64,000 nucleotides of DNA, from positions 3,999,899 to 4,063,898 of the forward strand of contig OZ025889.1 of the NCBI GenBank assembly GCA_964019415.1. The letters are read 5' to 3'. Position 1 is the first letter of the stretch, and each line of letters starts with the position of its first letter. The notes beneath the pieces were generated by a model that did no database searches, was not told where the DNA came from, and was given only the letters and a program-made list of their open reading frames with translations. Source of the DNA: Ianthella basta. Taxonomy: Eukaryota > Porifera > Demospongiae > Verongiida > Ianthellidae. Shown piece by piece: positions 207-63,068 of the stretch. The position numbers and the translations under genes were made by a program.

Positions 207-3200
207 ATGGCACAACTAAGCATTTCTTCACTCTGCCTGCGATTGTGCTTTTTAGTGGTTGCTATTTCTCAGGTCCACAGCCAAGGTGAGCGGGAGAATG
301 CCATATCGTATGATTCACACACTCGTGGTAAAGCCACTCCTCAGTGTAACTTAATTTACATAAATATTATGTAGTTAGCTATTACAGCATATATATTCAA
401 GTAGGGCCATAAGGTCCACCCATGCAGTTCACCAGAGTATAGCTGAACAGCTATGACGCACGTGTCTATTGATACGTACGCGCATTGTCTGTTTCATTCG
501 CTCTCATGGTACTGATTCTGCAATGCTCAAATTCTCCAGCACGCATGTGTGTAGCCTGCACATTTGGTATTTGCTCTTTCAATGCTTGCTGCTGTCATTC
601 TTGCTTCCTTCGTTTCCCTTTGGTTGTCAGATATTGACAGCTGCCTGGGCCCTGGATTCACACAGACACTTCCTTCCCAAGACGAGCTATCTCAGTACTC
701 GACAACTATACTCCAACCTGGCAACAGGGTCATTTACACCACGCTCAGCTTTAGATGCAATGGAACATTAGAGTCACTATTCATCCCCTCTCAAGTAAGA
801 GGCAGTGACTACCAATGGGTGGACAACTTTCTAGAACCTCGTCCTTCCATCTGGAGATTTAATGGAAATAATTACCGCAGCATTTTTGAAAGTGACAAAA
901 GGCAGCGCATTGTTGGTGCTCCAGGAACTATTGGTACTGGTCAGGATATTCAGATAGGCCCTAACACGGTACTGTCATTCAATTTTACTGTAATGCTCGG
1001 AGTAACCATTGAACCAGGAGATATCCTTGGTCTCAGGGCCATGAATTATTCCAGAAAGGCCAGTTTGACTCCGGTAATCGAGCACTTACCCCTCCTCTAT
1101 AAACCTGGTCCTGCTCCTGGTGACTTGACACCCATCATCATTGCCAACTTTGCTTCTACCAGTAGGCCACACATGGGTGAGTGTGTGGGAGTACCTTAGC
1201 TATTGAAGTACGTATGTAACTATAGTCTAAATGTTGGTCTGCGTGACCATAGCACTCACTGAAGTCTCATGCTAGTACTGTTAGTTAAGTGATCTTGGTT
1301 ATTCTCAAACTGCCTATTTTACAAAACTGTGCCTCTAATTTGCTATTAGTTTAAATTGATCATAAGCACATCAGTAATGTCTGCACGACATTTGATCACA
1401 TGCACATTCATTTTACCATAAATTGGTTTCATTGGGCAATCCAGGAGATTATGAAAGTGGTGCATGCTGTTTCTTTAATGTGTACAATTGTATAAAATTA
1501 TGCTCACTCTATTAATTACTATGCTTTCATTTTGTGCTAATTTAATTTAGCACACTACGTTGAATGCTTTTGAAATTGAAAAGTTTGAATGCGAATACAA
1601 GCCAAATTAGGGTGAGAACTGACATTGACGGTCCATGCAGAGGTGGATACGGTGCCCAGTAATTCTATTTTGAAATAGTCAAAGTGCAGGGTCAATGTGT
1701 AGGATTCCATATACTGAAGGCAGACTGCGCATGTCTGTGCGCAGTCCAGCAGTCATAATTGCAATTATTAGGAGGGAGATCTGTGCAATAGGAAACGGCG
1801 ATACAGGAATAAAGTGAGGCCTTCTCAGCTGGCTCAGGCATCAGAAAGGGTTGGTTCTCTAATACTAGCTTCACAACAGGGTTGAAAACCTTGCCGACGT
1901 TTCGACCAGATGCTCTGGTCATCTTCGCCCTGAAGAAGACCAGAGCATCTGGTCGAAACGTCGGCAAGGTTTTCAACCCTGTTGTGAAGCTGGTATTAGA
2001 GAACCAACCCTTTCTGATACAGGAATAGCAGTCCTCTCTTATCAAAGAATTAACAGTTTGGATATAGCTACTCTCTGTGTACGTATCTACGCCCTCAAGT
2101 ATTGAAGGAATGTTGGCTCATTTACAGCAAAGTGGCCTAGATGGACCACCAGTCCAATAACGTCTTCTGTATCACTCACCTCTCACCTGTTATTTTGAAC
2201 TATTCCACATTCTCACTGTTTGAGTGTACTCTGAAAAGCATACTGTGTTTGAAGTTGTATCATTAGCACATAAGTTCATTACACATAGAAATTGTTGGTG
2301 GCAAATTCCAGGATCTCTAACAATGCAGCTCAAGTGAAAGACTGCACGTAGTGAGAGGAGAAATTACAAGGCCATAGAGGCCTTAACCTAGGACCTACAC
2401 CCTATTGAAGAGTTTCAGGCATCAAGCCACCTGTCTCAAAGATGACTATAAATTTAGCCTCAGACACAGCTAATTTCCCACCTCTCGCTACATCCGTGCC
2501 TTGTGAATAGTAAAGTTGAAGTGATAAGTTTGATACAGATGCATACATAATGGCTTGCAAAATGAATAAATGTAGTTAGAAGATATTGCTATGTTTCTCC
2601 TACATGGTTGATAGAATTCCTGCATTCAGTTTTTCACCTTGACTGTAATATATATGTATACAGTGCAAGTTGTGATGTAAATATTATGTATAGTTGTTTG
2701 CGCGATACGTAAAATCATGTCTCCCACTGCTTTGTTTACCCTTCTTATAGTTGAAACAGATTCAGCTCTTTCTTCAGCCTTGGACAACAGCACTAAGCAG
2801 AGTAAGTTTATGGAGTTCATTAAAGAGTTTGATTGTTTACACAGAACAGACAGAGATGCTATCGCCAGAGCTATAAGTATCATGTCTATTTGCCTATATC
2901 ATGAGTTTCATATCTGTAGATTAATTATTGCTTTTCTGGTCATTTCACAGGTATCATCATAGCAATTGTTTGTCAGGTTGAAGTGGTAGTTGTGGCCATA
3001 GTAACTGCAGTAATAATGTATGCTGTCATAAGGGTTGTCAAGCATAAGCCTGTTATGAGAGGTGATGATGATCAGGGCAGAAGTCAGAACAATGCCGAAC
3101 TTGATCAAGACAGTAGTCATGTCTATGAACCTGTTGGTGTTCGTGCTTGTAATCGAGACTACGTGGACTTTCAGCCTTCTTCAGATCATGAGACAATGCC

Positions 3201-8407: not shown

Positions 8408-11164
8408 ATGGCACATCTAAGCAGTCCTTGCTTTTTTCTGCAATTGTATTGCTTACTGCTCACCACTTCCCCATCCAACGGCCAAAGTAAGTTAGAACAG
8501 CCACATTGAGGGTGTCCATAGGCTGTACCCAGGCACTAGATGACAGATTTATGGACTACCTTGGCAGGAGGCACGTACTGCATGTTGTAACTATGTAGTA
8601 TACGGTTCTGTGGATCATGTGCGGGGACATTTCGGCATTATCAATTGTGCAGAATCCTAACCTAAATACAGTGAAACCTGTCCATATCAGACAGCCACCT
8701 GTGAGCCAGCTCTAACTGACCTTTACAGAGAGGTAGCTAGTCTACAGAGGTAGATTACAATGCTCTAGCACTATGTGGGGCCAGGGAGGCTGGCTGTTTT
8801 AGAGAGGTGGTTAGACTATACTGTAATATAATTTATGCTTTGCATGTACATGTGTTAGTATAGATAGCTTTGCAATTGTGAAGCCCGCTACTAGTAATGT
8901 TACTCTTGCTTCCCTCACTCTCTGCTTCTCAGATAAATGTCTGGGCCCTGGATTCACCCGGGTAATCCCTCCTCAGAATGAGCAATCCCATTACTCAACA
9001 ACTGTACTCCAATCGGGCGACAGGGCAATCTACACCACACTCAGCTTTAGATGCAATGGAGTGTTAGAGTCACTAACCATTCCCTCTAAAATTAGAGGCA
9101 GTGTCTACCCATATGTGGACAACACTCTAGAACCTCGCCCTTCCATCTGGAGATTTAATGAGACTGGATTACATCTTGTTTTTGAAAGTTTTGCAAGCCT
9201 GACTACATTTAGTAGTGCCACTCGTGAGTTACAGCCCGAAGAAGTCCTTTCATTCAATTTTACTGTAGTGCTACAAATGAACATTCAGGCAGGAGATGTA
9301 CTGGGATTTCAAGCACTAATTTCCAGAAAGCCTCGAGAAGAGGTTACAGTGATTGAACACTTGCCCCTCCTGTATAAACCTGGTTCCACTCCTGGTAGCT
9401 ATATACCTGTCATCATTGCTAACTTTGAGCCTAAGAATGATGAGCCAGCCACAGGTGAGTTCAATTGATGCCTCCTACACACATGTTTGATGCTGACAAA
9501 AGTAGGTACACTGTCAGATGCATGCATGAGCACTGAGTTTATCTTGTGCACATATTTGCCTATGGGCTAATTATTGTGTGTTGCATGAAATAAATTACTT
9601 AATATAGATGAAACAACCTCTGAACCTCAAACCTCACCTCTGCCAACTACAATTACGACAGTGCCGGCTACAGATATCAGTGTTCCAAGTAAAGGCAAGT
9701 GTATTTGTCAGTGGAGTGCTGTCATATTGAAGGAGTTATTGCCATGATACTGAGCTAGCTCACAATGGCATGCATGGTATTTCAAAAGTTCATTGTCAGT
9801 TTAGAAACCTCTGATGAAATGCTAATATTGGAAAAGCAGCCTTTCTGCAATATTCTTTGAGCTTGTCCTGTGAGTGGGAGTTTGCAGGCGATTGTGGTGC
9901 CATAAATTGTAATGGTCAGTACATAGCTTACTGACTTAAATCATGATGCATAGCATGGAATTGAGCGGCATAGATGAACTTGACCTCAAAACTTACGTAT
10001 CAATACGTAATCATGAATGAATTGTGGAACAAATCGCTACATGTCATAATAGGCAATGATCAATACAATATAATTGCATAAAATTTCTATTCTAGCTACA
10101 TAGTTCAGAACATTAATATGCAGAATAAGCCAATATTCACCCTTTGAAGAGTTGCCAATTGGAGCCAGATTGGCTATCATACAAACTAGCTGTTAACGCA
10201 TATTAAATTTGTTATTATATCATTCTAGATCTACCCTCTCTCAACTGAATCTGTCTGCTCTTATATATAGATGATGAAGACTCAACTCTTTCTACTACAA
10301 ATGGGACAGGTTTGGACAACATTATCCTGATTGTAGGTATGTTTGAACAGGATTTGTGGAAGGGACATGCAGTTACTGATAGATATGCTACCACCATGTA
10401 TACAGGTCTTTAGTACAACAGTTAGAATTGACTGATACGCACCATGAAGTTCACTTGATTTGCTTTCTGTCTGTTGAAATATTGCATAATTGTATATAAC
10501 CAATATATAGGACATGAGTTTGCATAACACACGTAGGTGCCCAACATCTAGCAGTGGTGGGGTAGGTAGTGTTGGTGGTGGGGGGTTCAGACTAGTCTAT
10601 CATTACCCAGGCCCTATTTCCTTCATGTCTCCTATTGCACACTAGGGATGGCGCCATGATTTAAATTCCATACGAGAAGTGACCTGAGCAATGCTATATA
10701 CTAGGTTTAGACAATGTCTACTAATTATTTATACTATAGTGTTATAGTAGTACTCGCTTTACGTAATGGCATAGCAAAAAATGTAAAGATAGTGTGCACA
10801 TTGCATTATGTACAGTAACTAATTCACTGGCATCCTGTTGTCCTTGAGAAGTAATACACATGCATGCATTGTGGTTATGTTTGTTTCCTATCATTGCACA
10901 GGTAGTATCATTGCAGCTGTGTGTCAAGTTGAAGTGGTAGTCACTGCCATAATAACTGGACTGATTGTACACTTTGTTACTAAAAGGGCTGTGAAACAGA
11001 AGATCACTCAGGGTCAAGGCAGAAATGGGAACACTAAAAAGCTTTGTTTAGTAAGGAGAGAGAATATGCCTATATACGACTATGTTGGTCGTGGTGCTTC
11101 AACTGGTGAGGATGTGGAACTGCAGCCTTCTCCAGCTTACCAGACGGTGCCAGAGTATTATTAA
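8408..11164 (+). CDS. Short-tail membrane receptor 3 with extended Thr/Pro stalk
   Basis: Exons: 8408-8486 (signal peptide, MAHLSSPCFFLQLYCLLL), 8933-9454 (ectodomain), 9608-9688 (a 27-residue stalk rich in Thr and Pro, with LPTTITTVPATD), 10271-10336 (second stalk, DEDSTLSTTNGTGLDN), 10902-11164 (TM and tail). The total is 1011 nt, 336 aa, all introns phase 1. The ectodomain starts [20 protein letters not shown] and keeps FRCNGVLESL, FNFTVVL and [11 protein letters not shown]; it is a few residues shorter than its neighbours in the middle. The TM exon reads SIIAAVCQVEVVVTAIITG, and the tail has IYDYVGRG and PAYQTVPEYY. The extra Thr/Pro exon suggests an O-glycosylated spacer not seen in receptors 1 and 2. 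The role is inferred as a kinase-less surface receptor. Confidence 0.82.
8668..8825. mobile_element. Possible short TIR element (mariner-like MITE)
   Basis: The stretch runs from TACAGTGAAACCTGTC to TATACTGTAA, so ACAGT and ACTGT face each other next to TA dinucleotides. This is the form of a small Tc1/mariner-like element. It sits in intron 1 of receptor 3. The match is short and the call is tentative. Confidence 0.3.
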
Positions 11165-11408: not shown

Positions 11409-12815
11409 ATGGAGGCTTGATGGTAATGAATACTGCTGCATTTTGAAGAGCAAGGCAGGGGACCAGCGGTGCTCCTGGTGCTACTAATACTGATCAGTCT
11501 GTTCAGCTAGACTACAATGTGCTACTAGCATTCAATTCTACTGTAATGCTACAATTAGGCATTCAAACTGATGATGTTCCGGATGTTGACTGGATGCCAT
11601 GTCTGTTGATAGGAATGAGCAATTGCCCCTCCTGTACAAACCTAGTCCCATTCCTGGAGATTTCACACCCATTGCCATTTTTATCACTTATGTCACCAAA
11701 TGACCCTATTCAGACGGTAACCTGAATTTAGCTGCACGTATGATTTGATGAGTCCAGACCTGGGGCCCACAGCTAATGACAGCACACTCTGTGCACTAGC
11801 TAGATGCTACTATTTTAAGGCATGTGATGCATGAGAATATGCAAGTAGCATGTTGCACGAGCTCCGGTAGACTCCTGCATATTTTTATGATGCCTTGATT
11901 TGTTCACACTAGCCAACATTCACAAACAATCTGAAATGTTTCAGCAATTTCATCTATACCTTCATCATTCACCTAGTGTATACAAATCCAAGCCTGTGTG
12001 AACTTCTTAGACACTCAGGCCTCTTCAGAAAAGAATTTCATGGAATATGTTTGGATGAGGTCCTTTTTACGTGAGTATACCTATTTATGTACATATGCCT
12101 TGGTAACTAAGCACTGCCTTGAATTTTACACTCACCTATAGCTACCTTAACAGTCTAACAGCTGAAGAAGGCCTTCTGGGCCGAAACGTTCTGTTAAATC
12201 ATTCCTGTCAAGTGAATTGGTCATTATTTCCCCCCCCTTGTGAATCTATGTCGTGGCAATGAGCCTAAATATCTAACTAAACAGGACTGGTAGAATTATT
12301 TACAAATATTATTATACATACTGTATTCTATTGCTGTAAATCACGTGCATTCACAGGAGATGACACCTACGAGTCACCAGCTGAAACATTGGAAGCAATA
12401 TTTGATCAGCTGTCAAAGGGCAAGTACCTTGAGATCCCTCTCTCTTCAGTGAAGAAACATGCTATGCTTGGTGAGGGTGAGTTTGGTGAGGTGTTCAAGG
12501 GAGAGTGGACCTCCCCAACAAAGACACTGACAGTGGCTCTGAAGTTACTCAAGTCTTCAGCCTCAGATGAGGAGAGGTTGAAGCTCCTCCAAGAGGCAGC
12601 CATCATGGGACAGTTCATTCACCCCCACATTGTCAGACTCTATGGAGTGGTCCCACTGTCAGTACCGGTATGACATAGTGAAAGTCTACAGGCTATTGGA
12701 ATGTATAAGGGGTCCATTCAATAATCTTAGGGACAATTGTTGCTTCATAGGTCATCATTGTGATGGAACTGCTGCAAGGAAATGATCTCAGTAGTCATCT
12801 GCAAGTGAGAAACCA
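11409..12815 (+). pseudogene. Relic RTK: decayed ectodomain exon plus kinase N-lobe and hinge exons
   Basis: The stretch 11409-11725 is a degraded ectodomain exon: its start is missing, the frame is disturbed, and it runs into a sequence matching that just after the ectodomain donor of the RTK-type loci. The stretch 12357-12669 matches the kinase N-lobe exon (glycine loop [12 protein letters not shown] lysine, [12 protein letters not shown]), but has one base fewer at its 5' edge than paralogues, so a phase 0 entry would be out of frame. The stretch 12751-12815 is a hinge exon (IVMELLQGNDLSSHLQ) quite unlike the other copies. No signal peptide, TM, catalytic-loop or C-lobe exon is found. The N-lobe body itself is open. 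It is most simply a host RTK pseudogene left by unequal exchange or deletion. Confidence 0.7.
12162..12190 (+). other. Hammerhead-like CTGAAGA...CCGAAAC motif
   Basis: The arrangement is CTGAAGA, a short GGCC stem, then GAAACGTT, as in the element at 1800-2027 and resembling a hammerhead ribozyme core. It is isolated from any coding remnant. It is probably a scrap of a Penelope-like element; activity is not implied. Confidence 0.3.
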
Positions 12816-14556: not shown

Positions 14557-14656
14557 GATTATTGAACACCGTAAATAAGTTCAGTATAAGTACAGTGACT
14601 GCTATGCGAACAGCATTCAAAATTTTGTGATTGTCCGCCAGATGAGTACTGCAGCA

Positions 14657-16085
14657 ATGGCACTTCTAAGCAGTACTGGTCTCTTTCTGAGATTGGGCAG
14701 TTTGCTACTCGTTGCTTCTCTGTCCTACAGTCAAGGTGAGTGAGGGCCACAGATGTGGTGGTAGGTGCGAGCTATAGGGGAAGAGGGACACTTCCACACA
14801 CGAACGCGGTAGCTAGCGCACCCCTATTGTTGCTAGAATTTAGGTTTTCGGCTATATAGCTGTATTTTTCTCCGAAACCTGATATAGGGCGTATAGCAAA
14901 TGCACAGGCAGGTTCTTTTGTGTGTCTGTTGTGAGGTCCCACACCACATGGGCCACGTTTGCTACTCTGCGAAGTACTCCAACACTGTAACTTCAGCCTT
15001 TCTCCGTCACATATGCCATGCCGCTTGTAAACGTAGCAACGCGCCATCAACGTCTATACTTTGTGTCATCTGTTGTCTGCTAAAGTGTACTGCTGTCACT
15101 CCAGTTTCCTTCTCTCCTGATTTACGTATCAATATCAGAAAACTGTCTGGGCCCTGGATTCACCCGGACTATCCCTCCCCAAGACGAGCTGTCTCAGTAC
15201 TCAACTACTGTGCTCCAACCTGGTGACGGGGCAATCTTCACCACGCTCAGTTTTAGATGTAACGGAACATTAAAGTCACTAACCATTCCCTCTGAAATAA
15301 GACAACAAGTACACCCAGTGGTGGATGACCTTCTAGAACCACGTCCCTCCATCTGGAGGTTTGATGGAGATAGATACCGCAGGATTATTGAAAGTACAGC
15401 AAGACAGAGCACCATTGATGCTCCTGGTACTACTGATAGTGATGACACTATTCGGCTACACCCTGGAGTGGTACTGTCATTTAACTTCACTGTAATGCTG
15501 CAAGTGGACATACAGGCAGGAGATATGCTCGGATTCCAACTAACAGCTATGTCTGATAATAGGATCGAACACTTGCCCCTCCTGTACAAACCTGGTCCCA
15601 CTCCTGGTAGCTTCACACCTGTCATCATTGCCAACTTCAATACTTCCAGTGAGCCAGCCACAAGTGGTCCTGTTGAAGGTGAACCATTATACATAGGTAC
15701 AGTAAGCTGCCTAAGTTGATGCTGAGCGATGAATGTGGCCATATCTCTACAGGTCAGTCAAGTGGCCAGTCTCCCAGTGACTCCAGTGCTTCTGTTGCAG
15801 CATTGGCTGTTCTGTTTGCACTGGCACTGATTGTGATCATAGCCCTGATTGTGGCTGTGGTAGTTCTTGTGGTGATGATGAAGAGAAGACAGACCATTAG
15901 TAAGTGCATGGGTTCAGTCTGGTCCATTTACACAGTCTGTTCATTAGAGGACTGTATTTGGAATGCACTCACTCTCACTCATTGTTCTTTTGTAGTATGT
16001 GAGTGTATGCCCATAAAATGTGAGCATATATAGCATTGTGCTGCTTAGTACTTGCATGGTGCTAAGACAACAATCATTTCTTACT

Positions 16086-16161
<76 letters not shown>

Positions 16162-26925: not shown

Positions 26926-33669
<6,744 letters not shown>

Positions 33670-40942: not shown

Positions 40943-42584
40943 ATGGGACGTCTAAGCTGTTATGGTCTCCTTCTGCAGTTGTGTAGCTTACTGCTCACCG
41001 CTAGTCTGTCCTACAGCCAAGGTGAGTGAGGGCACAGATGTGGTGGTAGGGAGAGGGGAGGAGGGACGCGTCCATGCACGTGGTAGCGCACTGTCCTATT
41101 GTTGCTAGAACTATAGGTTTGCGGGTACTTCCTTCTCTTGAATACTACATGTGGGTGGATAGACAAATGCACATCAAGGTTCATTCGTGTCTATGGTACG
41201 TATTAAGAGTTCCACACCATAGACACACTGCCACCTTCGCAATTTTGAGGGTGTGCGGAGTATTCCAACGCTGTCATTTCTGCCATTTTCCGTCATGAAG
41301 ATACCAGCTTTGAACGTGGGACTCAGTGTAGGCCTTCAATGTCTATACTTACATTGTGTAATCTGTTTGTCTGTTCAAAGTGTACTGCAGTCACTCCAGA
41401 CTCCCTCTCTCCTGATTTTCAGACAACTGTCTGGGCCCTGGATTTACCCAGACAATCCCTCCCCAAGACGAGCTGTCTCAATACTCAACAGCTGAGCTCC
41501 AACCTGGAGACAGAGCAATCTTCACCACACTCAACTTTAGATGCAATGGAACTTTACAGTCACTAACCATTCCCTCAGAAATTAGACAACATGAACACCC
41601 ACTAGTGGATGACCGTCTGGAACCACGTCCTTCCATCTGGAGGTTTGATGGAAATAGATACCACTTCATTTTTGAAAGTGATGCAATGCAGCATACAATT
41701 GGTGCTCCTGGTACTAGTGGTAGTGGTCAGACTGTTCGGATAACTGATATGGTAGTATCGTTCAACTTTACTGTAATGCTACAAAGGAACATTCAGGCAG
41801 GAGATGTACTGGGATTTCAAGTACTAAATTCCAGACAGTCCCAAGGTAATACAGTGATTGAGCACTTGCCCCTCCTGTACAAACCTGGTCCTATCCCTGG
41901 AGAGTTCACACCCATTGTCATTGCCAACTTCACACCTACCAGTGATCCAACCACTGCGTCCAGAGGTATGTCACCAAATGACCCGACACATGTGGCCCAG
42001 GTTTATTGGTGAATTATTAGATACAGTAAGCTGAATGTACTTGTGCTTATGAATGTGGTCTTAATCTCTGTCTGCAGGTCAGTCAACCGTCCAGTCTCCC
42101 AGTGACTCCAGTGCTTCTGTTGTGGCATTGGCTGTCTTGTTTGTACTGGCACTGATTGTGATCATAGCCCTGATTGTGGCTGTGGTAGTTCTGGTGGTGA
42201 TGATGAAGAGAAGACAGACCATTAGTAAGTACATGGGTTCAGCCTGGTCCATTTACACAGTCTGTTCATTAGAGAACTGTCATTGGAATGCACTCACTCT
42301 CACCCATTGTTCTTTTGTATAATTATGTGAGTGTATGGAGGACTGTCATAGGAATGCATCACTCCTACCCATTGTGCATGGTGCTAAGTGATCTCTCTAT
42401 ATGTGTATTTGTATATTTGTATATTTGTGTGTGTATGTGCATGTGTGTATGTGTATCTGTGTGTGTGTGTATGCATTCGTGTGTCTGGGTGTATGCGTGT
42501 GTGTGTATGTGTATGTGTATGTGTGTGTGTATGTGTATGTGTGTGTGTATGCGTGTGTGTATGCGTGTGTGTGTATGCATGTGT

Positions 42585-42657
<73 letters not shown>

Positions 42658-48600: not shown

Positions 48601-49922
48601 GGTTTCATGTTTGTTGTAATGATTCAGAAGTGTTTGTTTGGTTCACCGAATGGGTATATTGAAAATGAGACAACGCCATTGTAAAGTTATACAATGGGTA
48701 GAATGTTGTAATCTCAGCTGACATAATTCAAATTACCATTCCAATATCCAAATCAAAACATCCAGAATGGGACTGGCAACTTATTTGTTTCCGTTTATAG
48801 AGTATTTTAGCACTGACTTTCTCTGAACAGCTATCTCATTCCCTAATGCCATCTAGCTCCTAGTTTTGTCACACATTTCAGAATTGTTCCAGTTTAGCTC
48901 AACCAATGCCAAGTATTTCGGCCTTTGTACGTGTGTCATACATTCTTAGCATAGTTATATTCTCTCTGAGCATGTCTGTAGTCTGCACGCCAGCATAAAT
49001 TATGTGTTGCAGAATTTTGCTGATGGTGATAACCAAGAATTTTTGCATTTTATGAATAAAGGAAATTGATAAATTAAGTTAATTTTTGAAGCTCTAGTAC
49101 ATTTTGCAGTACTGGCCACAGCTCATTGGATCTTCAGGCTGAGGAACTGCCAAGCCAGGCTTTCATTTGTGTATAGCGGGAGTCTGATGACAGATGGCAC
49201 ATTGCCATAACTGTTCTAGCTAAAGGAGCTAGTTGTAGCAACATACACTGATTACATTCAACTGTACACAAGATTAATTCCTATTCGGACACATGTGATT
49301 GAGATGCTGTCAGCAGGGAGGCTTACGGAACCATCCTGGGAGTGGTTTATACTGGCAGTGGCAGTTCACATTGTGGAACAATCATGCAGTTTCACAGTTA
49401 TGTCAGCAGTGTCTGTTAGCATAGATACGATTGGCATTAGGTGGAAATCTACAATTTACTCAAAAACCATCTTAAAAGCAACTTAAATTCTCTTGGTTGT
49501 AGCATGCAAAGGCGTGTAGAGTCTGTAAGCCCAGTTTGTTCATTTGTTCTAGAATCTGTCAGTGAGCATATTCAAATGCCCAAAACACAGCATCTTGTTT
49601 CCCTACAAGTAAATCTTTCATCATTACAGCCCAGCCTAATCTACGTATATAGAGTGCAGTGAATGACAGCCATGCATGTTCGTATGATTCCTACCCTTCT
49701 ATAGCCACAGCTCCTGCTTTCCTGTCTCCTCCTAGGCATCCTGATTTCCACTCTCGTGTCAGTTTCACTGAAGTGGTGCAGTCCCTCAACTATGACCAGA
49801 GGTCCCTACTGCAGATGGATCCAAGTGACAAGACAGGAACACCTCTCTCCCTCACACTTGGAGCACCACTGGAACATGGACAAGACCTGCACAAGGACCT
49901 GCAGGACACGTACAAGAAGTGA
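40943..49922 (+). CDS. Receptor tyrosine kinase C
   Basis: Twelve exons: 40943-41021 signal peptide; 41423-41965 ectodomain; 42078-42224 TM; 42701-42894, 42979-43029, 43317-43409 juxtamembrane; 43718-44029 N-lobe; 47207-47274 hinge; 47360-47510 catalytic loop; 47705-47911 activation segment; 48448-48533; 49736-49922. The total is 2118 nt, 705 aa; exon sizes match RTK-A except in the ectodomain. Kinase residues are intact: [81 protein letters not shown]. The ectodomain has [20 protein letters not shown] and [16 protein letters not shown]. Juxtamembrane VYAVV replaces the YxxM of RTK-A. It should be an active plasma-membrane tyrosine kinase with unknown ligand. The 3.2 kb N-lobe/hinge intron holds a hAT-like element. 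Confidence 0.9.
42421..42658. repeat. TG-rich microsatellite in RTK-C
   Basis: A TG repeat with TATG and TGCG variants, then about 65 bases of pure TG. It lies in the same intron as the TG run of RTK-A. Confidence 0.9.
43429..43562. repeat. (TG/CG)n microsatellite in RTK-C
   Basis: An alternating purine-pyrimidine tract with a pure CG start (CACGCGCGCGCG), beginning about 20 bases after the donor of the third juxtamembrane exon. RTK-A and the dead kinase have shorter TG runs at the matching place (17150 and 36632). Such tracts can adopt Z-DNA. Confidence 0.85.
45342..46560. mobile_element. hAT-like non-autonomous element in RTK-C intron
   Basis: Ends CAGGGCTGTAGCACC and GGTGCTACGGCCCTG form 15 bp inverted repeats with one mismatch, of the CAGGG type common in hAT elements. 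I could not see a clear 8 bp target duplication. Inside there is a CGGCC-rich start, the nested hairpin at 45690-45868, and an ending GGGGGGCATGCCCCC. No transposase is visible. Confidence 0.5.
45690..45868. repeat. Nested hairpin inside the hAT-like element
   Basis: Arms of about 70 bases: TGTACAGCGGATTAA, AACCTTGCAACAGTTCCCA and TTACCTAGGATACG recur as their complements on the right side, around a loop of about 35 bases. It is a MITE or snap-back duplication. Confidence 0.65.
46609..46628. repeat. Poly-G run
   Basis: About 20 consecutive G in the RTK-C intron. It is a likely place for sequencing error and length variation. Confidence 0.8.
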
Positions 49923-50947: not shown

Positions 50948-53900
50948 ATGGCGAATTGTACTTGGCTGCTCTACTTCTGCTGGCAACTGACAGCACTTCT
51001 TTGTTTTCAACTGGACAGTGCGCTAGCTCAGTCCACAGGTGAGTCAGAGGGCTTGTGGTCAATGCCAATTGTAGGGCAATGAAGGGGGTGTTTTTATATG
51101 GCACAGTATCATAGCGTTTTATAGCTAGGTGAAATTTATCCTATTCGTGGAAACGTATGTGTGATATTTCCTGAGTTAGCTGCACCAATTTCATCGCTCA
51201 ATGTACAGGTATGTACTTTTCAACAAGGCACGTGCATGCGGCTTGTCTTCACATAATATCCATCATTACCTATGTATATGCCTAGGTAAACTTGAAAGAG
51301 TTTCTGCCAGCTACAAACAGATATTATTACTATAAAATGCACTCTTGTGGACTTAATTGTGAAGGTGGTAGATGGATCTCATGACTATCTGTCCACGCAT
51401 TATACAAAAGTGGCTATAGTGTACTCCTTCGGGAATACAACCCTCAGCTAGTAGACAAGTGGGAGGAGCTTGGCAATGCCTTCTGTCTGGAGACCCATGT
51501 GTGTACATTGCAGAACAGCAGCAAGTCATCTGACAGATGTGTGCTTGCATTGCTAAGTGCCTGGATCAGTACAAAATGTAGAAAAAAAACAAGGATTTAA
51601 TTATGTAATATGTTTTGCATGCAGCTACATACAAATGATCCACAGCTTTGACAGTTAATAAACAGGTTTGAGCATGGCATTATTATATTGGATGGTTTTG
51701 AAGCATCTATGCGAGTCCAAGTCAGTTCCTAGTAAGGTGTGCACACCATATAAAGGAAGCCACATTTCCTGTTATTGACCGTTTCAGACTAAGCCTATTC
51801 AATTTTTCATCAGAACACAATTGAAGTTTATGAATTAGACAAAAAGCCTATTGTCAGCAATATGCACAGCTCAATTGATGCTATTGAATGAGCTAGCTAT
51901 GCCTTTAATGTTTTGATCCGGTGAGCATCCTTCTGACAGTTTGGGATAGGCCCAAGAATCCTGTTTCCAATTTCCAATTCCTCTAATAATGATTTCTACG
52001 ATATAGTTTTGTGCACATGCAGCTCTTAGGGTAATAATGGTGAATAGGGTTAGGGTTAGGGTTAACCCTTAGGTGAATAAATATTTTGTACCTTGCATTA
52101 ATTGACAGAAAGCAATGTCCTTATCATTATGGGGAAGAAATTTTCATTTTTTACTGTACTCACGTCACCAGACACTGTATATTCCAATAGTGTGTGTCAT
52201 GTAGTTGTACGTCATGAGCCTCATATAATTGGCCTAGGGGGTGGGCAGGAGGGGCCGCAGCAGCTAATGCAAACACAGAAGCTACTTTTATTTAATTCAG
52301 GTTTTGGATGGGTAATGCACTGGGTCGTATACGTAATTATCCCATCTATATCCATGGTCTAATATTCAATTTATGTGGAAACCGTGCACTACAACTTGTA
52401 TTTGTATACAAATGACCCACAACTTTGACAGTTAATAAACAGGTTTGAGCATGGCATTATTATATTAGGTGGCTTTGAAGCATCTATGCGAGTCCAAGTC
52501 AATTCCTAGTAAGGAGTGTAAACCATACATCTAATTATACAGGAAGCCACATTTCCTCCTATTGACCATTATAGACTAAGCCTATTGTCACCAGTATTCA
52601 CAACTATAAATTGATGCTGCTGAATAAGCTAAGCCTGTAATGACACAATGACCACCCTTTTATTTGACAGTTTGGGATAGGCCCAAGGCCTGTTTCCTAA
52701 GTGTGCCTCTAATAATAATGATTTCTATGAAATAGTTTAGTGCATAATATGCATTTTGTACCTGGACAGAATGTAATGTCCTTATATTATCACTAGACAC
52801 TGTATATTCCAATAGAGTGTGTCATATAGCTGTACGTCATGAGCCTTGTGCAACTGGCCTATAGGTGGGTGGGCAAGAGCTAGGGGCCATGGCAGCTAGG
52901 GCAAACATAAAGCTACTTTCATTTATTTCGGGTATTGGAGGGATAATGCCAAGAGCCGTATATGTAATTACTCCATCAATATCCATGGTCTAACACTCAA
53001 TCAGTCTGTATTATATATATATAATGGGAACTGTGCAGTACAACTTGTACCTTCATTAGCATTGAGCAGTTGTAGCAATCTGCAGCTGTCAGAAATTGTT
53101 ATTTCCTTGTGTATGTAATTGTTATTGTCATGACATAGAGTTGTTTTTCCCCACTGCTCACAGCATGCTCTTGACATTATGATAGTAATGCTACTAATCC
53201 TGAAATCTCCAGGCTCCAGACATCATCCTTTAACCACCATCTCTTTACTGCAGCGTGCCTTGAGGGATTCACGCAGGACCTGCCTCCCACAGACCAATTC
53301 AGCCAGTTTTCTACAAATTCTATAACTCCTGATAGTGACGTTGTCTTTACAGGTGCCAAGTTCTTGTGCAACGGAACACTTGAAGCAGTACATGTTCCCA
53401 TTGAGCTGAGAGGCAGTGATTACCAGTTCTGGGATCGTGGGCTAGCAGCTCAACTCATAATTTGGAGACAGAATGGAGCAAATTTTGTCAGGATGGGGTT
53501 TAATATAGACTTTTCGGAAAATATTCTCAACCAAAATTTGGAGATGGTTGACGATAAAACAGTCAGGCTGAATGAGTCAGACGTTGTCCAGTTTATTGAA
53601 AATAGAGATGTACGAGTAGACATTATGGATGGTGATGTCATGGGTGCCTCTGTGCCCAGAACTACTCACCGTTCAGTAAACATCTCTGGTACTGTTCAAA
53701 GTGTCACTGTTGCTCAGCACTTGCCTCTGTTATTTCACAGAGAGACCCAGATACCTTTGATGAGTGTTACCTTTATACCGTCCACTGCTCCTCCTACAAC
53801 AAGTGAAGGTTTGTTGTGGTATATTGAAATGACATTGTCAATCATTAAACAGAATATTATGTGGTGTGTATCAAGAATGAATGAAGGAATAATTATTAGA

Positions 53901-56900
53901 ATGAGGGCCTACCTATTAAACAATAGACTGTCCAAACACCTGAAGTAAGGAATTGATTTGCTTGCAGTGATGTGTGAGATGTTGTGATTACCAATTCTTG
54001 AGTCACAATCCATTTAATGTCTCTCCTGTAATCTTATGGTCTGCCTGCAGCAGCCCCTTAATGATTATTGTCTTAATTGTTTTGACATTCTGTTGTATGG
54101 CTTCGTGTTACGCTTCCGGTGGTATTAAATGTATTCAGGTATCAGAGAGTATACGATAGTACTCTCTGATGCCTGTATGATGGTACAGGGTGTTTCGAAT
54201 TCACAATACATAGCTAGGTATACGGACGAAATCGCGAAAAGAGCAGAAAACCGCCAAAACAAAGTAGTAGGGTTAAATACATTCTTACACTTAACTGACC
54301 TAGTCTGGCTTGCTAGACCATCCCATCTACGTCCCCCCCCCCCCCCCTCCTTTTTGTATGAAGAAGAATTGTGCGCTGAAAACTAAATTGGCAAGCAAAA
54401 GGCACAAGCTAGCGATCCCATGTGGGGGATCTTTGTACTGGGTCTCTATGTAGAGTTACAGCACGCGCAATGCATGAACGTGTGCAATAAATTCAGTTGC
54501 GCTGGTGTAACTTTATGACCGTTCGATTTACAAAAATCCCCACATTGACGTGTTAGGTAGTACGTTTCTGCACTTACCTATGTCTTTGCTTTGCCTCTTA
54601 ACCGTCTCAAAAAGTCTGCTCCCGCAATGAGTGCATTTTATAGGGTTTGTTTACAGGACATTTCTCGCTTCAGAGAATTAGTAACGATGAATATCAGACA
54701 TTCACATGAAGAAGAAAGTTCGGGCTTTGTCTCCATCCCATTCTTGCTTAGTCCAGATTTGACTTAAAAGAGAAAAAGAGGAAAATGCAAAGGTCAAAAT
54801 CGGTCGTGCGCAGCAACTGCATTGTTTACATAGCCATAACATAATTGTTTTATTCATTCTTGCCTATGAAGTGTGTTCACAAGTGTGTTCATGAATTACA
54901 CAAAATTAGTTGCAATAGCAGCAACCGGAGGGAGCAAATATTTTAAGTTGGGATAGTAGCCCCACAGTTATTCTTAACGGGAAGTACTTGTTTCAGTTCC
55001 ACTGTTGCTGAAGGCCTTTGGGGCTGAAACACCCAGTGATATCTTTATTCTGATGCTACATATGTCCATTTGCTGAGCAGAAGCCTATTAGGTTAGGTTA
55101 GGTTAGGTTATTTTATTGAAACAGGATAGTCCCATCAGCTCATATGGCTGGTCTGCCTGGGAGTCCTGAAAACAATACAATACAATACACACAGGTGATA
55201 GTAATGCTATATGTCCAGCTAATGATGATAAGAATAGAATGTGATTGTGATTAACAAAAATGGACTGTAATTGAAAGTTAATTCATAAGATTAGATTTTA
55301 ATGCACTCTTGAAAAGTGGAACGGACTTGATACTTCTGATCTCTGGAGGAAGATTTGACCGGTACTGATGCTCTAAAAAAGAAAGATCTCCTTGCCCACT
55401 CAGACTTAACAGGGAAGAGGTGACGGTTGTCAGAGCCCCTAGTCCTAGCATAGCCCAAGGAACAATTTCTGTGAAAGATTGAGTAAGGTAGGCCGGGGCC
55501 AGATTGTTCAAGCATCTGTGTAGAAGGATAAGCCGAAACATAACTCTACGTCTTTCTAGGGGCATCCAATGCAGAGTATGCCTCATCTCCACACTAGGTG
55601 TCCTGGGTGGTTGTCATGGGATCAGTTGCATAGCATAGTTTAGGATCCTCTCTACTTTAGTCTGTAATACACTCTTGCCAAACAACTGCACAGTAGTCTG
55701 CATGAGGCAGTACAAAAGCCTGAAAGAGTTTCCTCTTTAAAGCAGTAGGCAGAACTTTGCTGTATCTTCGTAGCTTTGAGGGTGCCCCAAAACATTTCTG
55801 ATGCACTCTGGAGATGTGATTCTTCCAAGAAAGTTTCTCATCAATCCACACCCCTAGACATCTCACACAACTACTTCTGGACAGCACCTGCTCCTCCAGC
55901 TGCACCTCTACCTGATTCAATTCGGCTTCTCTCCGTCTCCTTCCTAGCAGCAGCAGTTGAGTCTTCTTCACATTTTGCATCAGCTTGTTCCTTTGTACCC
56001 ATTCAGCTACTTTTGCGGCACCCTAAGCCTAATTACTACCTACCATTATGTTTCACAATCCACTTGTTAGTTTCTTTTACTTGAACCTGAATGGTACACA
56101 TTATCTTAAGTGTCAGATTAGCAATGGAAGATGAAGTTTGAAGCTGGTTGATGGTCTCTAATCATGTTTATTCCAAAATTGTAAGATGAATAATACAATA
56201 ATTTACGTTCTATGCATTTTAGGAGATGACGTATCAATGCCAATTTCAACTCTGTCTGTTAATTACGCTGTAATGAGACTCTGTAGCATCTGTGAAATTG
56301 TGCAAGTGTGATATTATAGAATATATTTGCTTTGTACTTATAATAGATGAAATGGGTTCAGCTGCTCCTTCTGAGACTGGAACACAAGACAGAACCACTT
56401 TGTTCAGTAAGGGCAAGGTGCATGTGTGTATGTAAGGGATTCATGACTTGTGTTAATGTAGAGAACACAGTTGATCATTGCTGGGGTTCTGCATACAAGC
56501 TATACATTGTATAAGCAGGTCTTTCATTTAATGATGAGGGCAGCAGTTTTTAATCATTTATAATCTTATTACAATGCCTGAAGTGACTTTGTCATGACAG
56601 CTGGCAGCCAAACAATGTAAGATTGTATAGGAAGGTGTTGGAAAAGGGACATAACGTGCAAAGCCATATAAGACACCTAAAAGCATTCCTCCAGAACCTT
56701 ATATTCTACGCATAACCAACAGAAAAGTATATATATATATATATATGGGAACAGGTATTAGTAACTCAGTACTTTTATCACAGCAATTCTGTGCATAATT
56801 ATGAAATTCACTTGGCATTCTCCATTTTCATGAATTCAACAGTTATACGCACAATTTGTTAGAACTAGTCGGGTCTATGGAATATAACATGTAATATATT

Positions 56901-57248
56901 ATAAAATACATGTACTTTGGTAATGTTTCATTTCCTTTCAAATTCAAATTCTTTTCATCAGGTAGCACCATTGCAGCTGTGTGTCAGGTTGAAGTGGTAG
57001 TAGTTGCCATAGTAACTGGATTCATTGTACACTTCCTGACCAAATTTGTGATCAAACAGAAGTCCATTCTGAGCCAGAATGGAAGTGGTAACACGGCAGA
57101 GCATGGTCCATTGAGAACAATCAATCGGCCTCTACCTCAGCCTCCAGCTGCTGCCCTGGAATCATCCATGTCTACTGGTGAGGATGTGGAATTGTCGCTG
57201 TCTCCAGCTTATGAACCAGTGTCAGATTACATGCCAGAGTATTTGTAG
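50948..57248 (+). CDS. Short-tail receptor 7 (second ectodomain subfamily)
   Basis: Exons: 50948-51038 (signal peptide MANCTWLLYFCWQLTALLCF), 53254-53808 (ectodomain, 185 codons), 56347-56406 (stalk, DEMGSAAPSETGTQD), 56962-57248 (TM and tail). The total is 993 nt, 330 aa, phase 1 throughout. The ectodomain is diverged but collinear with the others: ACLEGFTQDLPPTDQFSQ, FLCNGTLEAVHVP, LRGSDYQF, IMDGDVMGA, AQHLPLLFHRETQIP. The last exon is short-tail type (STIAAVCQVEVVVVAIVTG, basic TKFVIKQK) with a longer tail containing RPLPQPP, a class I SH3-binding pattern (RxxPxxP), then PAYEPVSDYMPEYL. A possible extra exon at 56223-56269 would break the phase and is not included. Introns contain a LINE fragment, a TTAGGG tract and a tandem duplication. 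The role is inferred as an adaptor-coupled receptor. Confidence 0.8.
51403..51600 (+). pseudogene. Death-domain-like intronic frame, receptor 7 copy
   Basis: The frame LYKSGYSVLLREYNPQLVDK, WEELGNAFCLE, CVLALLSAWISTK runs to a stop at 51600. It is clearly paralogous to the frame at 60955-61205 in receptor 8. Its upstream part, including the acceptor and first codons, has diverged or been lost, so it probably no longer splices in frame. The W-x-x-LG and SAWI spacing recalls a death-domain helix pattern, but the identification is weak. Confidence 0.4.
51624..53050. repeat. Tandem duplication of about 0.7 kb in intron 1 of receptor 7
   Basis: Copy 1 (about 51624-52400) and copy 2 (about 52404-53050) share TTGACAGTTAATAAACAGGT, GAGCATGGCATTATTATATT, GCATCTATGCGAGTCCAAGT and TATCCATGGTCTAA. 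Receptor 8 has a single copy (about 61220-61950), so the duplication is private to this gene. Confidence 0.8.
52032..52072. repeat. Interstitial telomere-type tract (TTAGGG)n
   Basis: TTAGGG-like units lead to AGGGTTAGGGTTAGGG and then a head-to-head turn GGGTTAACCCTTA. The paralogous site in receptor 8 (about 61625) lacks these bases, so it is an insertion of about 40-45 bases. TTAGGG is the usual animal telomere repeat. Confidence 0.7.
54045..54995. other. Receptor 7-specific insertion in intron 2
   Basis: The sequence on both sides matches receptor 8 (around 63285-63305), which lacks these ~0.95 kb. It has a short hairpin near 54139-54168 (TATCAGAGAGTA, spacer, TACTCTCTGAT) and a poly-C run near 54334. 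No coding homology is recognised. It is probably an unclassified transposon. Confidence 0.45.
55008..55032 (+). other. Hammerhead-like motif, receptor 7 copy
   Basis: CTGAAGGCC, a short stem, then CTGAAACACCCAG. The paralogous motif is at 63320-63341 in receptor 8, so it predates that duplication. It is probably a scrap of a Penelope-like element. Confidence 0.25.
55089..56026 (-). mobile_element. LINE 3' fragment with (CCTAA)n tail
   Basis: Minus-strand pieces of a reverse transcriptase C-terminal region: KVAEWVQRNKLMQNVKKTQL, CVRCLGVWIDEKLSWKNHIS, PHADYCAVVWQ, then LHWMPLERRRVMFRLILLHR and NLPPEIRSIKSVPLFKSALK. This is of L2/CR1 type. The frame changes at least once between the pieces and the 5' part with the catalytic RT motifs is missing. 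The 3' tail reads as four CCTAA units (TTAGG on the + strand, 55089-55110). Receptor 8 has the uninterrupted site near 63400. Confidence 0.75.
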
Positions 57249-59663: not shown

Positions 59664-60183
59664 AGGTTATATATATACCCCTCCCATCTGCAATAGCACA
59701 CTACATAGTCATTACTATTTCGCTTTATGTCTGAGAAATTCCTTCTGAAGAATCTAAAATATTCTGTTTGGTTTGTGGTGCATTGCTTTGCATTTTATAC
59801 TTTCAAATTGCTGATAACACTGGTACTGACATCAGCGACGAAAAGTGGGGGATTACCATGCAAGATGTCGAATTCATTATGCATTCATTAATTATTATGT
59901 AACAATGTTACACTCCTCGTGTAGATTGTGAAGAGGTCGAGGCTAGTGAAAACGACGTCACATCCAGCTGCCTATAGCAAAGGAAGATTTAAAGGGACAA
60001 GCTATACCTGACTAGGCTCATCGGTCATGCAAGGAGTGATATGAGCAAAGCAGACTGAGGCCAGTGTATTTTTCATTCATTCCCTCTCCACCTTTCCTAC
60101 GTACTATAGGTATACGTACCGTATAAGGGAAAGATACAGCCACCGCAATAATGTGATGGTACGATCGGACAGGCAGTTATAAG
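59664..60183. other. Upstream region of receptor 8
   Basis: No exon is supported. The last 100 bases should contain the promoter. I see no clear TATA box. Confidence 0.35.
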
Positions 60184-63068
60184 ATGGCGAATCGCATTGT
60201 GCTGCTCCACTTATGCTGGCAACTGGCGTTGCTTCTCTGGCTTACACAGGACAGCGCGCTAGCTCAATCCGCAGGTGAGTCAGAAGGCTTGTGGTTGATG
60301 CAGGCCGGGTGATGGAGGGGGCACTACGGTGGGGCAATACAGCGTGACTGAAGCTTCGACTGGCGAATTTTGTCTCTTTTCGGGGCGGTACCTGTAATAC
60401 CTGAACGGTTTAGTTCCCCTGCTCACCGCGTACGGTTAGGTCTAAGTTCAGAGGTAAGCCGTGACTCTATATATGATGGTACTTCACGGCCACCATTCTG
60501 CAAACTGCTGTAGCTACCGCACTGTAGGCAGCTTTTTGACTATAGCTAGTACTGATTGCCATGCACGGCAATTCATCTTCACACATCCTTCATTAATATA
60601 ATTGTTGATAATTAGAAGTCTGTGTACCATTGTGATAGTGCTACATTGCACCTGCCTGTGTCCTAGCACCTCGCACCCATTCACTCTAATAATACTTGAT
60701 TATAATACTGACTGCTTATCATAATTGTACTGCACTCTAATAATAATTGATTGATTATGTAGCTAAGAAAGAGTTCCTTTGATTTCAACACCACAGAAGT
60801 ACAATCTACCGTGCAAGCCTGCGTGCGTACAGTACTGCATTGCTTTGAAATAGTCAGCAGCCTTGGTTGCGAGGTGTAAAAGTCAATGTAGTCTATTAAA
60901 ACCTGATCTGATCTTTCCCTGAATACTGCTGCATGTTTAATCCTATTTTGGCAGTCACTCAGTGTACACCATTGGGTCATTTGCAGCATTGTTGTCCATT
61001 ATACAAAAGTGGCTATAGTGTATTCCTTCGGGAATGCAGTCCTCAGCTAGTAGACAAGTGGGAGGAGCTTGGTAATGCCCTCTGTCTGGAGAACCAAGTG
61101 TGTACCTTGCAGATAAGCAGCAAGTCCTCTGACAGATGTGTGCTTGCATTGGTTAGTGCCTGGATCAGTACAAAATGTGAAAAAGAACAGGACAAAATTA
61201 TGTAATATGGGTTTGCATGTAGCTACATACAAATGACCCACAGCTTTGACAGTTAATAAACAGGTTTGAGCATGGCATTATTATATTGGATGGTTTTGAA
61301 GCATCTATGCGAGTCCAAGTCAATTCCCAGTAAGGTGTGTACACCATGTAAAGGAAGCCACATTTCCTCTCATTGACTGTTATAGACTAAGCCTATTCAA
61401 TTTTTTGCCAGAACACACAGCTCAATTGAAGTTTATAAAATAGACTGAAAGCCTATTGTCACCAGTATGCACAGCTCAATTGATGCTATTGAATGAGCTA
61501 AAGCCTTTAATGTTTTGATCCGGTGAGCACCCTTCTGACAGTTTGGGATAGGCCCAAGAATCCTGTTTCCAAAAGGGTGCCTCTAATAATGATTTCTACG
61601 ATTTAGTTTTGTGCACATGCAACTCTGTGAATAATTATTTTGTACCTAGGCAGAAAGCAATGTCCTTATCATTATAGGGAAGAAAATATACTTTTATACT
61701 GTACTCACATCACCAGACACTGTATATTCCAATAGTGTGTGTCATGTAGTTGTACGTCATGAGCCTCATATAATTGGCCTAGGGGGTGGGCAGGAGGGGC
61801 CGCAGCAGCTAATGCAAACACAGAAGCTACCTTTATTTATTTTTGGTATTGGAGGAATAGTGCCTAGGATGGTATACATAATTACACCATCTATATCCAT
61901 GGTCTAATATTCAGTCTATGTAGAAACCGTGCATGCACTACAACTTGTATTGGAATTTCCCGTGTATATATAATACTAGCAGAGTGTCCCGCCTTCGGCG
62001 AGCTACAGCGCCCGACGCCTGTACCCCGATGCCCTCAGCAACCACGTTACTGTTATAGCTGGCTAAAAATAAAATTTAGTTATAGCTGGTGGGATGATTA
62101 CATGTATCGGTTTAAATTCGAACGTGGGACGACAGCGAATCAATTACGATAAAACCGGAAGTCGATAGGAACAATAATTAGAAAATGGCCGTCGTCCGCG
62201 AAGGAAAAAGCGGAAATGGACGGATAACTCTCTGCCAACCGCAAGACGGGCGCCGTCAACCCCGCTATAACCTGACCCCCGGTGCCCCAGCAGCCGCAGC
62301 GAGTATGACGGCGACGGAGCAAAAAACGCGCGCACGTATCGCGAACACACAGACAGACAGACAAGTTCGGCTTTATATATTAGATTGTCATGATATAGAG
62401 TTGTTTTGCCCCACTGCTCACAGCATGCTCTTGAAATTATGATAGCATTGCTGTTAATCCTGAAACCCCCAGGCTCCAGATATCATCTTTTAACCATCCC
62501 TTTACTGCAGCATGCCTTGAGGGATTCACACAGGAGCTTCCTTCTCAAGACCAATTCAGCCAATACTCTACAAATTCCATCAACCCTAATAGTGAAGTTG
62601 TCTTTACAGGTGCCAAGTTCTTGTGCAATGGAACACTTGAAGCATTGCATGTCCCCATTGAGCTGAGAGGCAGTGATTACCAATTCTGGGACCATAAGTT
62701 AGTGACCCCACTAAAAATTTGGAGACAGAACGGAGCAAGTTTAGCCAGGAAGCATATGTCGTTCATAGGCTTGTCACAAAATATTCTCAACCAAAATTTG
62801 GAGATGGTTGATGATAAAACAGCCAGGCTAAATGTAACAGATGTTGTCCAGTTTATTAAAAATGTAGATGTACAAGTAGACATTATGGATGGCGATGTCA
62901 TGGGTGCCTTTGTGCCCGGAAGCACTCTCCGTTCAGTAAACATCTCTGGTACTGTTCAAAATATCACTGTTGCGGAACACTTGCCCCTGCTACTTCACAG
63001 AGAGACCCAGATACCTTTGATGAGTATTACCTTTATAACGTCTACTGCTTCTTCTACAACAAGTGAAG
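60184..63068 (+). CDS. Receptor 8 (second subfamily), incomplete at the right edge
   Basis: Exons seen: 60184-60274 (signal peptide MANRIVLLHLCWQLALLLWL) and 62511-63068 (ectodomain, 186 codons), phase 1 to phase 1. The ectodomain has ACLEGFTQELPSQDQFSQYS, FLCNGTLEALHVP, LRGSDYQFWD, IMDGDVMGAFVPG and AEHLPLLLHRETQIP and is a close paralogue of receptor 7. The donor is AAG|GTTTGT as in receptor 7. No TM exon lies before the window end, so whether it is a short-tail receptor or an RTK cannot be decided here; the close relation to receptor 7 favours short-tail. Intron 1 carries the alternative frame at 60955-61205 and a Helitron-like element. Confidence 0.78.
60955..61205 (+). CDS. Candidate alternative terminal exon with death-domain-like sequence
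   Basis: The acceptor TTTTGGCAG at 60954 is in phase 1 with the signal-peptide exon of receptor 8. The joined frame (VTQCTPLGHLQHCCPLYK, REC, LVDKWEELGNALCLENQ, CVLALVSAWISTK) ends at a TAA at 61203-61205; spliced to 60184-60274 it would make a 113-residue protein. The pattern W-x-x-LG-x-AL and C-x-x-AL-x-SAWI resembles part of a death domain, which is normally cytoplasmic, so behind a signal peptide it would be odd; the many Cys would instead suit a secreted mini-protein. The copy in receptor 7 stays open over the last ~65 codons. It could be a relic of an older exon. Treat this as a hypothesis. Confidence 0.4.
61976..62384 (-). mobile_element. Helitron-like element in receptor 8
   Basis: On the minus strand it begins A|TCTAATATATAAAGCC, continues with GTCTGTCTGTCTGTGTG, and ends with a CGCC-GAA-GGCG hairpin, ten bases, then CTAG|T. 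These are the standard Helitron ends and A/T insertion site. It is 409 bp, with no Rep/helicase. The matching site in receptor 7 (around 53128) is empty. Confidence 0.75.

Follow-up and report, generated by a model that had tools for sequence, protein, structure and literature searches.

A tandem array of candidate paired-type recognition receptors in the sponge Ianthella basta, with one ectodomain family on kinase and kinase-less chassis

The window, the whole 64,000-nucleotide stretch of DNA analysed here (positions 3999899-4063898 of contig C22), contains between positions 207 and 63068 eight genes with a common ectodomain of ~180 residues, of which two are receptor tyrosine kinases (RTKs), five are short-tail receptors and one, g8, is cut off. 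It is a slice of a ~0.9-Mb array on C22, from 3.74 to 4.63 Mb, and we give a probability of roughly 0.6 to the reading that this array encodes paired-type recognition receptors, whose ectodomain would probably bind a variable ligand. The behaviour of a recognition locus, as proposed in the original prediction, is borne out by the tandem array, the exchange of chassis among its members and the positive selection estimated for the ectodomain. The genes and relics are listed below by their positions in the window, with their exons in brackets (TM, transmembrane).

207..3213, + strand: g1, short-tail receptor (signal peptide 207-285, ectodomain 631-1176, linker 2751-2801, TM and tail 2951-3213); stop-free spliced reading frame of 312 residues
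4141..6645, + strand: g2, short-tail receptor (signal peptide 4141-4219, ectodomain 5091-5618, linker 5910-5978, TM and tail 6383-6645); stop-free spliced reading frame
8408..11164, + strand: g3, short-tail receptor (signal peptide 8408-8486, ectodomain 8933-9454, linkers 9608-9688 and 10271-10336, TM and tail 10902-11164); stop-free spliced reading frame, GT donor
11483..12804, + strand: RTK-gene relic (C-terminal ectodomain pieces 11483-11679, first kinase exons 12359-12804); profile and exon matches
14642..21938, + strand: g4, complete RTK of 12 exons and 709 residues (signal peptide 14642-14735, ectodomain 15139-15678, TM 15753-15899, juxtamembrane 16491-17127, kinase 17629-21938); stop-free spliced reading frame, PF07714 at E 2.7e-86
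26926..33669, + strand: g5, short-tail receptor (signal peptide 26926-27004, ectodomain 27366-27914, linker 28984-29022, TM and tail 33413-33669); stop-free spliced reading frame
28029..28118, + strand: remnant of an RTK-type TM exon within a g5 intron; E 3.3e-8 against the RTK TM exon and, in the genome search, 80% identity over residues 1-31
37143..39831, + strand: kinase relic 3' of g5; each of the six kinase exons is represented by pieces, interrupted by frame breaks and in-frame stops, and DFG has become NFG
40943..49922, + strand: g6, complete RTK of 12 exons and 705 residues (signal peptide 40943-41021, ectodomain 41423-41965, TM 42078-42224, juxtamembrane 42701-43409, kinase 43718-49922); stop-free spliced reading frame, PF07714 at E 7.8e-87
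50948..57248, + strand: g7, short-tail receptor with an ectodomain of another clade (signal peptide 50948-51038, ectodomain 53254-53808, linker 56347-56406, TM and tail 56962-57248); tail exon match at E 9.9e-22
60184..63068, + strand: g8, cut off at the window end (signal peptide 60184-60274, ectodomain 62511-63068); the adjoining 5 kb of the genome are N

The ectodomain exons are open in 8/8 window genes and align with a mean column identity of 52%, Cys30, FxCNG and HLPLL being invariant in all eight. Together with the stop-free spliced models, this agrees with the claim that eight genes share one ectodomain behind a signal peptide, and the predicted division into two complete kinases (g4 and g6), five short tyrosine-bearing tails (g1, g2, g3, g5 and g7) and one cut-off gene (g8) stands as well. 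For g7, the exons of ectodomain, linker and tail were read together, a single base being placed in front to set the frame, and its signal-peptide exon (50948-51038) was located through its similarity to the g8 counterpart. A kinase-gene relic had also been predicted and is indeed present, but there are two of them (11483-12804 and 37143-39831) and not one; in the genome search the ectodomain match of the first contains four TGA and one TAA. Both g4 and g6 display the features of an RTK, namely a signal peptide, a single TM segment, these two being called by eye from hydrophobicity, and a tyrosine-kinase domain with catalytic motifs. Furthermore, the junctions of the ectodomain, linker and TM exons are of phase 1 wherever they were read in spliced models, hence an in-frame swapping of modules is possible.

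Several other elements lie inside the array. Reverse-transcriptase-like reading frames of the non-LTR retrotransposon type were identified by eye at 23462-25402, 58660-59666 and 55657-56022, all on the - strand. A long inverted repeat at 25889-26327 gives a much alike translation of 143 residues from either strand, and a tandem repeat with a unit of ~25 bases occupies 20870-21310, in the g4 intron preceding the penultimate exon. Immediately 3' of the g5 tail exon, a short reading frame at 33809-34228 resembles, by eye, a fragment of a RecQ-type helicase, which is probably part of a repeat.

The extent of the array was established in the 209-Mb assembly, which comprises 96 contigs. This assembly gave 6 matches to the nuclear-receptor zinc finger and 32 to the homeodomain, numbers that fall within the sponge range. 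Two ectodomain queries gave 34 and 43 matches (E <= 0.01), largely at the same places and all on C22 between 3.74 and 4.61 Mb, while the 17 matches of a tail-exon query (E <= 0.1), two of them short pieces, all fall on C22 between 3.86 and 4.63 Mb. This clustering of ectodomains and tails at a single locus exceeds chance. The g6 kinase query gave at least 148 matches, mostly on C22 with more on C15 and others scattered elsewhere, 120 of 2030 candidates being scored. When matches of the same kind within 700 bases were merged, 46 ectodomain places (fragments and relics included), 33 places of the first kinase exon and 17 tail places were counted, together with 45 for the activation-loop kinase exon, of which 44 fall inside the cluster and one at 3.46 Mb. 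In the left part of the array, from 3.84 to 4.11 Mb, the order is mostly a repeated succession of ectodomain and kinase exons with short genes interspersed; gene 3876k, for instance, shows an ectodomain, a TM exon and all six kinase exons in order, as exon matches and not as a spliced model. The stretch from 4.12 to 4.44 Mb holds 23 of the 45 activation-loop kinase places against four ectodomain matches, three of which belong to short genes, and in one of its kinase genes (L083) the 8 kb upstream show no ectodomain match. Given so few ectodomain matches, possession of the common ectodomain is demonstrated for only some kinases of the array; those at 4.12-4.44 Mb may carry ectodomains diverged past detection, or different ones.

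A second large tandem cluster is found at C15:719000-1184000, where 62 of the 67 matches to its ectodomain family lie and kinase exons are present in the same stretch. Comparison of the C15 and C22 ectodomain profiles gives a probability of 94 and an E of 1.1e-7, while a single C15 member scores 2.6 bits against the C22 profile and the structural model of the C15 ectodomain (pLDDT 61.3) is too poor for a fold comparison. Judged from this profile comparison, the C15 ectodomain is a distant homologue of that of C22. Outside both clusters, isolated kinase exons 70-78% identical to g6 are present at C11:3744062-3753490 and C9:3057042, which may be transposed copies, and four tyrosine kinases in long open frames at C4:2797110-2954396 score highest in the genome against PF07714 (up to 337.6 bits) and are perhaps another kinase group.

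The kinase chassis of g4 and g6 consists of an uncharged TM helix, a tyrosine-rich juxtamembrane region and an Eph-like kinase. Indeed, apart from a higher-placed EGFR entry in which two kinase stretches match, the nearest PDB kinases are of the Eph type (EphB1 3zfx, E 4.7e-71), and the RTKC8 kinase (PDB 8e4t), of the choanoflagellate RTKC type, is found at E 3.8e-62. In Pfam, kinase-type families are the sole ones to reach the cut-offs for g4 and g6, and ephrin-binding, FN3 and SAM domains are absent. The SIT adaptor came up for the RTK juxtamembrane region (E 0.0009 and 0.005), below the cut-off, and was rejected.

No named domain had been recognised in the ectodomain by the original prediction, and the searches are in keeping with this. 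For the ectodomain nothing convincing was found in Pfam, NCBIfam or PDB sequences; identity with a known common domain, which would have counted against the original prediction, is thus not seen in these collections. More specifically, no Ig family appears among the Pfam matches up to E 0.1 with 61 ectodomains or up to E 1 with the eight of the window, and the PDB sequence search returned nothing at E 5. The best Pfam match, an NTPase family at E 0.012 in one member, was considered as scatter, and STEVOR/RIFIN in NCBIfam, matched by two members with a best E of 0.0072, was judged to be a chance match. The structure of the ectodomain is predicted with confidence as a beta sandwich (pLDDT 92.8), for which fold searches gave no clear structural relative; jelly-roll families, namely TNF ligands, CBM6, C1q and discoidin domains, were returned with no winner among them and at a level of score that is common. 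Based on this model, the ectodomain is predicted to be a beta sandwich, without assignment to one of the jelly-roll families.

The relation between ectodomain and chassis was followed on a tree of 27 ectodomains, 22 of them labelled K (kinase) or S (short) and five unlabelled, on which e4100k, e4497k and the kinases lacking an ectodomain match have no place. The labels were assigned from the nearest downstream 3' exon match and not from transcripts, and that of 3963k rests on a tail exon situated 10 kb away, past an ectodomain relic. On this tree the label changes at least six times, the starred branches forcing 6 (K) and 5 (S), and the two labels are weakly clustered, shuffled labels giving values as low in 57 and 26 of 500 cases. 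The nearest pairs across chassis share 85% ectodomain identity each and are formed by g5 (S) with g6 (K) and by g7 (S) with 4094k (K).

Ectodomains and kinases of the same genes are discordant as well. Between 3864k and 3910k the kinases differ by two residues in 173 codons with a dS of 0.00, while the ectodomains show a dS of 0.44 and a dN of 0.24; between 3876k and 3921k the dS is 0.05 for the kinase and 0.60 for the ectodomain. Across clades A and B, the ectodomain dS ranges from 1.3 to saturation and the kinase dS from 0.14 to 0.32. Hence, the kinases stay alike while the ectodomains diverge or are imported. On the side of the short receptors, the tails of 3974k, 4370k, 3861k and 3917k are, by pairwise distances, mutually close (dS 0.14-0.26), and the ectodomains preceding them belong to different clades. 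Moreover, the RTK-type TM remnant in its intron and the dead kinase downstream make g5 look like an RTK turned into a short receptor, the relic at 37143..39831 being perhaps its former kinase. Taken together, two features of paired-receptor families are found here, namely a cluster that joins ectodomains of one kind to more than one signalling chassis, most kinases at 4.12-4.44 Mb having no detected ectodomain, and a frequent exchange between chassis and ectodomain, as seen in the label changes and in the discordance of ectodomain and kinase.

Selection was estimated with the codon site models M0, M1a, M2a, M7 and M8 in our own Python implementation. In clade A (9 ectodomains, 158 codons) the comparison of M7 with M8 gives a 2dlnL of 33.9 with 6.5% of the sites at an omega of 4.6, and in clade B (8 ectodomains, 163 codons) a 2dlnL of 41.5 with 22% of the sites at an omega of 3.7, these models assuming one tree and being liable to inflation by the recombination evident in the array. 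The signal is kept after three columns on each side of gaps are dropped (p 1e-6 and 7e-5) and also when each half of the ectodomain is analysed with a separate tree (p 0.003 to 5e-5). In seven clade-B genes, two kinase exons display an omega of 0.36 and an M7/M8 p of 0.24, four sites still being above 0.9, compared with an omega of 0.84 and a p of 1.5e-7 for the ectodomains of the same seven genes. The tail, used as a further control, is not clean (M7/M8 p 0.001, M1a/M2a p 0.02). By these codon models the ectodomains are under positive selection in two clades and the kinase exons of the seven genes are not. The selected sites show no enrichment outside the strands (P 0.16 and 0.78) and agree modestly between the two clades (r 0.22, a value reached in 4 of 152 circular shifts). 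Candidate sites, numbered on the g6 ectodomain, are residues 60, 64, 86, 102, 138 and 140. With exact self-matches excluded, near-identical database copies exist for four ectodomains of this genome, one identical and three differing at 5 residues in total; one of these residues, from g2, falls on site 60, which ranks strongest in clade A, the differences being too few to weigh.

These estimates bear on a reading of the locus as an ordinary lineage-specific expansion of RTKs, used in development or environmental sensing, where the short forms would be dominant-negative or decoy versions and no recognition role would exist. RTKs generally have developmental roles, and such an expansion fits with the purifying selection on the kinase exons and with the existence of short forms without kinase. 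However, positive selection on the ectodomain in two clades would be unexpected in conserved developmental receptors, and so would the exchange of modules. We thus regard an ordinary expansion as unlikely, and favour recognition receptors of the paired type.

The kinase-less chassis is defined by its TM and tail exon, which was compared among the 15 long tails of this genome, the two short pieces among the 17 matches being left out. CQxE is present in the TM helix of 14 of the 15, of which 13 form an alignment (A5) gathered partly by the CQxE motif itself, to which the tails of g7 and of 4630k, the latter without CQxE, were added. Further conserved features are [S/N]P[A/T]Y (13/15), Y-x-x-[ILV] (15/15) and a tyrosine within the last four residues (15/15), with 2 to 6 tyrosines in each tail. 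A database search with the tail gave 120 matches in assemblies, 12 of them on one contig of 4,745,187 bases that also bears near-identical copies of the genes of this genome. In a hand-picked alignment of 31 of the 120, five of which are copies from this genome or from a near-identical assembly, SPAY is found in 30, Y-x-x-[ILV] in 29, a tyrosine in the last four residues in 23 and [C/T]QxE in 25, the other six starting beyond that point. The SPAY form is presumably similar to a PTB site with Ser replacing Asn, which is a weak likeness; NPxY itself occurs in 2/15 tails of this genome and 0/31 of the database. The ITIM pattern is seen in one and three tails of these two sets respectively and ITAM in none of the 46, hence the pairing of activating and inhibitory receptors in the classical sense, which had been considered at the outset, is not borne out. 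Pfam gave no match at its cut-off for the tails (table for the first member), and the best one of the summary, a cyanobacterial TM domain (7/31 tails, E 0.00032), was taken as an effect of TM composition.

Six contigs, of 731399, 1249236, 172271, 153626, 202373 and 115908 bases, are common to the lists of ectodomain and tail matches. With contigs of equal size taken as the same, ectodomain and tail appear linked in other assemblies too. The recurrence and conservation of the tail in these assemblies suggests that the short-tail genes are not dead.

Two other origins of the short forms were considered. The tails could be alternative last exons, so that one gene would yield kinase and kinase-less forms by splicing. 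Open TM and tail exons are indeed located at C22:3917525 and 3856292, ~1.5 and 2.0 kb 3' of the kinase ends of 3910k and 3847k, with no intervening ectodomain match, and these two may be alternative last exons; the stretches preceding them (L097 and L098) have similar translations, as expected of mutual copies. In the window, however, no tail exon was matched between the kinase of g4 or g6 and the next ectodomain, and g1, g2, g3 and g7 have no intact kinase of their own downstream, which makes this origin quite improbable for the short forms in general. That the short forms are decaying RTKs, having lost the kinase and using a leftover TM exon, is suggested by the g5 remnant and the dead kinase downstream of it but is hardly credible, as the short TM and tail form a separate exon family with conserved residues, 17 matches in this genome and 120 in the database, and g5 is better explained by a switch of chassis.

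We return to paired-type recognition receptors. The window would be one part of an extensive tandem family of receptors that cross the membrane once and serve in recognition. In each of them a signal peptide precedes a predicted beta-sandwich ectodomain of ~180 residues, whose ligand is probably variable or adversarial, for instance a self/non-self marker, a microbe or another ectodomain of the family. The same ectodomain clades have repeatedly been fitted with two chassis, either the RTK or a kinase-less one, the latter composed of a TM helix with a conserved Gln-x-Glu and a tail of ~60 residues in which tyrosines recur, in Y-x-x-V/I, in [S/N]-P-A-Y and close to the C-terminus. The members exchange modules, as the discordant histories of their exons show, which keeps the kinases alike and the ectodomains diverse, and RTK and short forms of one clade would most likely see related or common ligands. 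Either the RTKs or a cytoplasmic kinase could phosphorylate the short tails, or the short forms could compete with the RTKs as modulators or decoys, and the Gln and Glu of the TM helix may support assembly with a partner. Phosphorylation of the short tails by the RTKs in particular seems to us somewhat doubtful. A more elaborate version, which we offer tentatively and at less than even odds, is that of a near-megabase combinatorial repertoire for self/non-self or microbes in an early-branching animal, in which a new, rapidly evolving beta-sandwich ectodomain is swapped between RTK and substrate-tail chassis, the signal depends on how the ligand brings RTK and short forms together in clusters, RTKs instead of ITIM/ITAM receptors make up the paired system and a sister locus on another contig carries a homologous ectodomain. 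The locus offers ordered candidates with a testable logic, that is an ectodomain family, candidate selected residues and two chassis, and neither ectodomain nor tail falls convincingly in any Pfam family. To our knowledge, no consensus exists on which receptors of sponges mediate the rejection of grafts and the discrimination of microbes.

Among known systems, the kinase of g4 and g6 is nearest to Eph receptors when the double-matching EGFR entry of the PDB is set aside, but by Pfam these two genes differ from Eph receptors in having no ephrin-binding, FN3 or SAM domains. The discoidin domain receptors DDR1/2 give a fold Z within the middling range against which the tool warns, and at E 5 no sequence of the PDB is matched. 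Allorecognition loci of invertebrates, such as Hydractinia Alr, encode clustered polymorphic transmembrane recognition proteins which are Ig-like and have no kinase chassis. The array resembles Alr in its clustered transmembrane proteins of putative recognition type, polymorphism being a feature of Alr-type loci, and is unlike it in that its ectodomain is not Ig-like by sequence and that a kinase chassis is present. The vertebrate paired receptors (KIR, FcR-like, CEACAM, SIRP and PIR) are encoded by clustered genes with similar ectodomains and differing TM and cytoplasmic types. In the open-access literature on sponge RTKs, sponge recognition, paired RTKs, genomes and paired receptors, as far as its passages go and with subscription journals mostly uncovered, the array is not described. 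The RTK of Geodia cydonium is likewise a sponge receptor tyrosine kinase, but its ectodomain is Ig-like, and the passage describing it mentions neither kinase-less partners nor an array (PMC12018476). Xenopus FcR-like genes are reported to number at least 75, with six Ig subtypes joined to two TM subtypes (PMC2413239). The array has in common with the vertebrate paired receptors the clustering, the similar ectodomains on different TM and cytoplasmic types, the shuffling of domains and the birth and death of genes. It differs from them in that sequence searches detect no Ig domain, a tyrosine kinase itself forms one of the chassis, ITAM occurs in 0/46 tails and ITIM in 4/46, and the polar TM residues are Gln and Glu. 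By analogy, the array would work like the vertebrate paired receptors, as a likeness of organization and not a demonstrated membership in those families. If this is true, the strategy of paired receptors also arose on receptor tyrosine kinases, far from the Ig-based systems of vertebrates.
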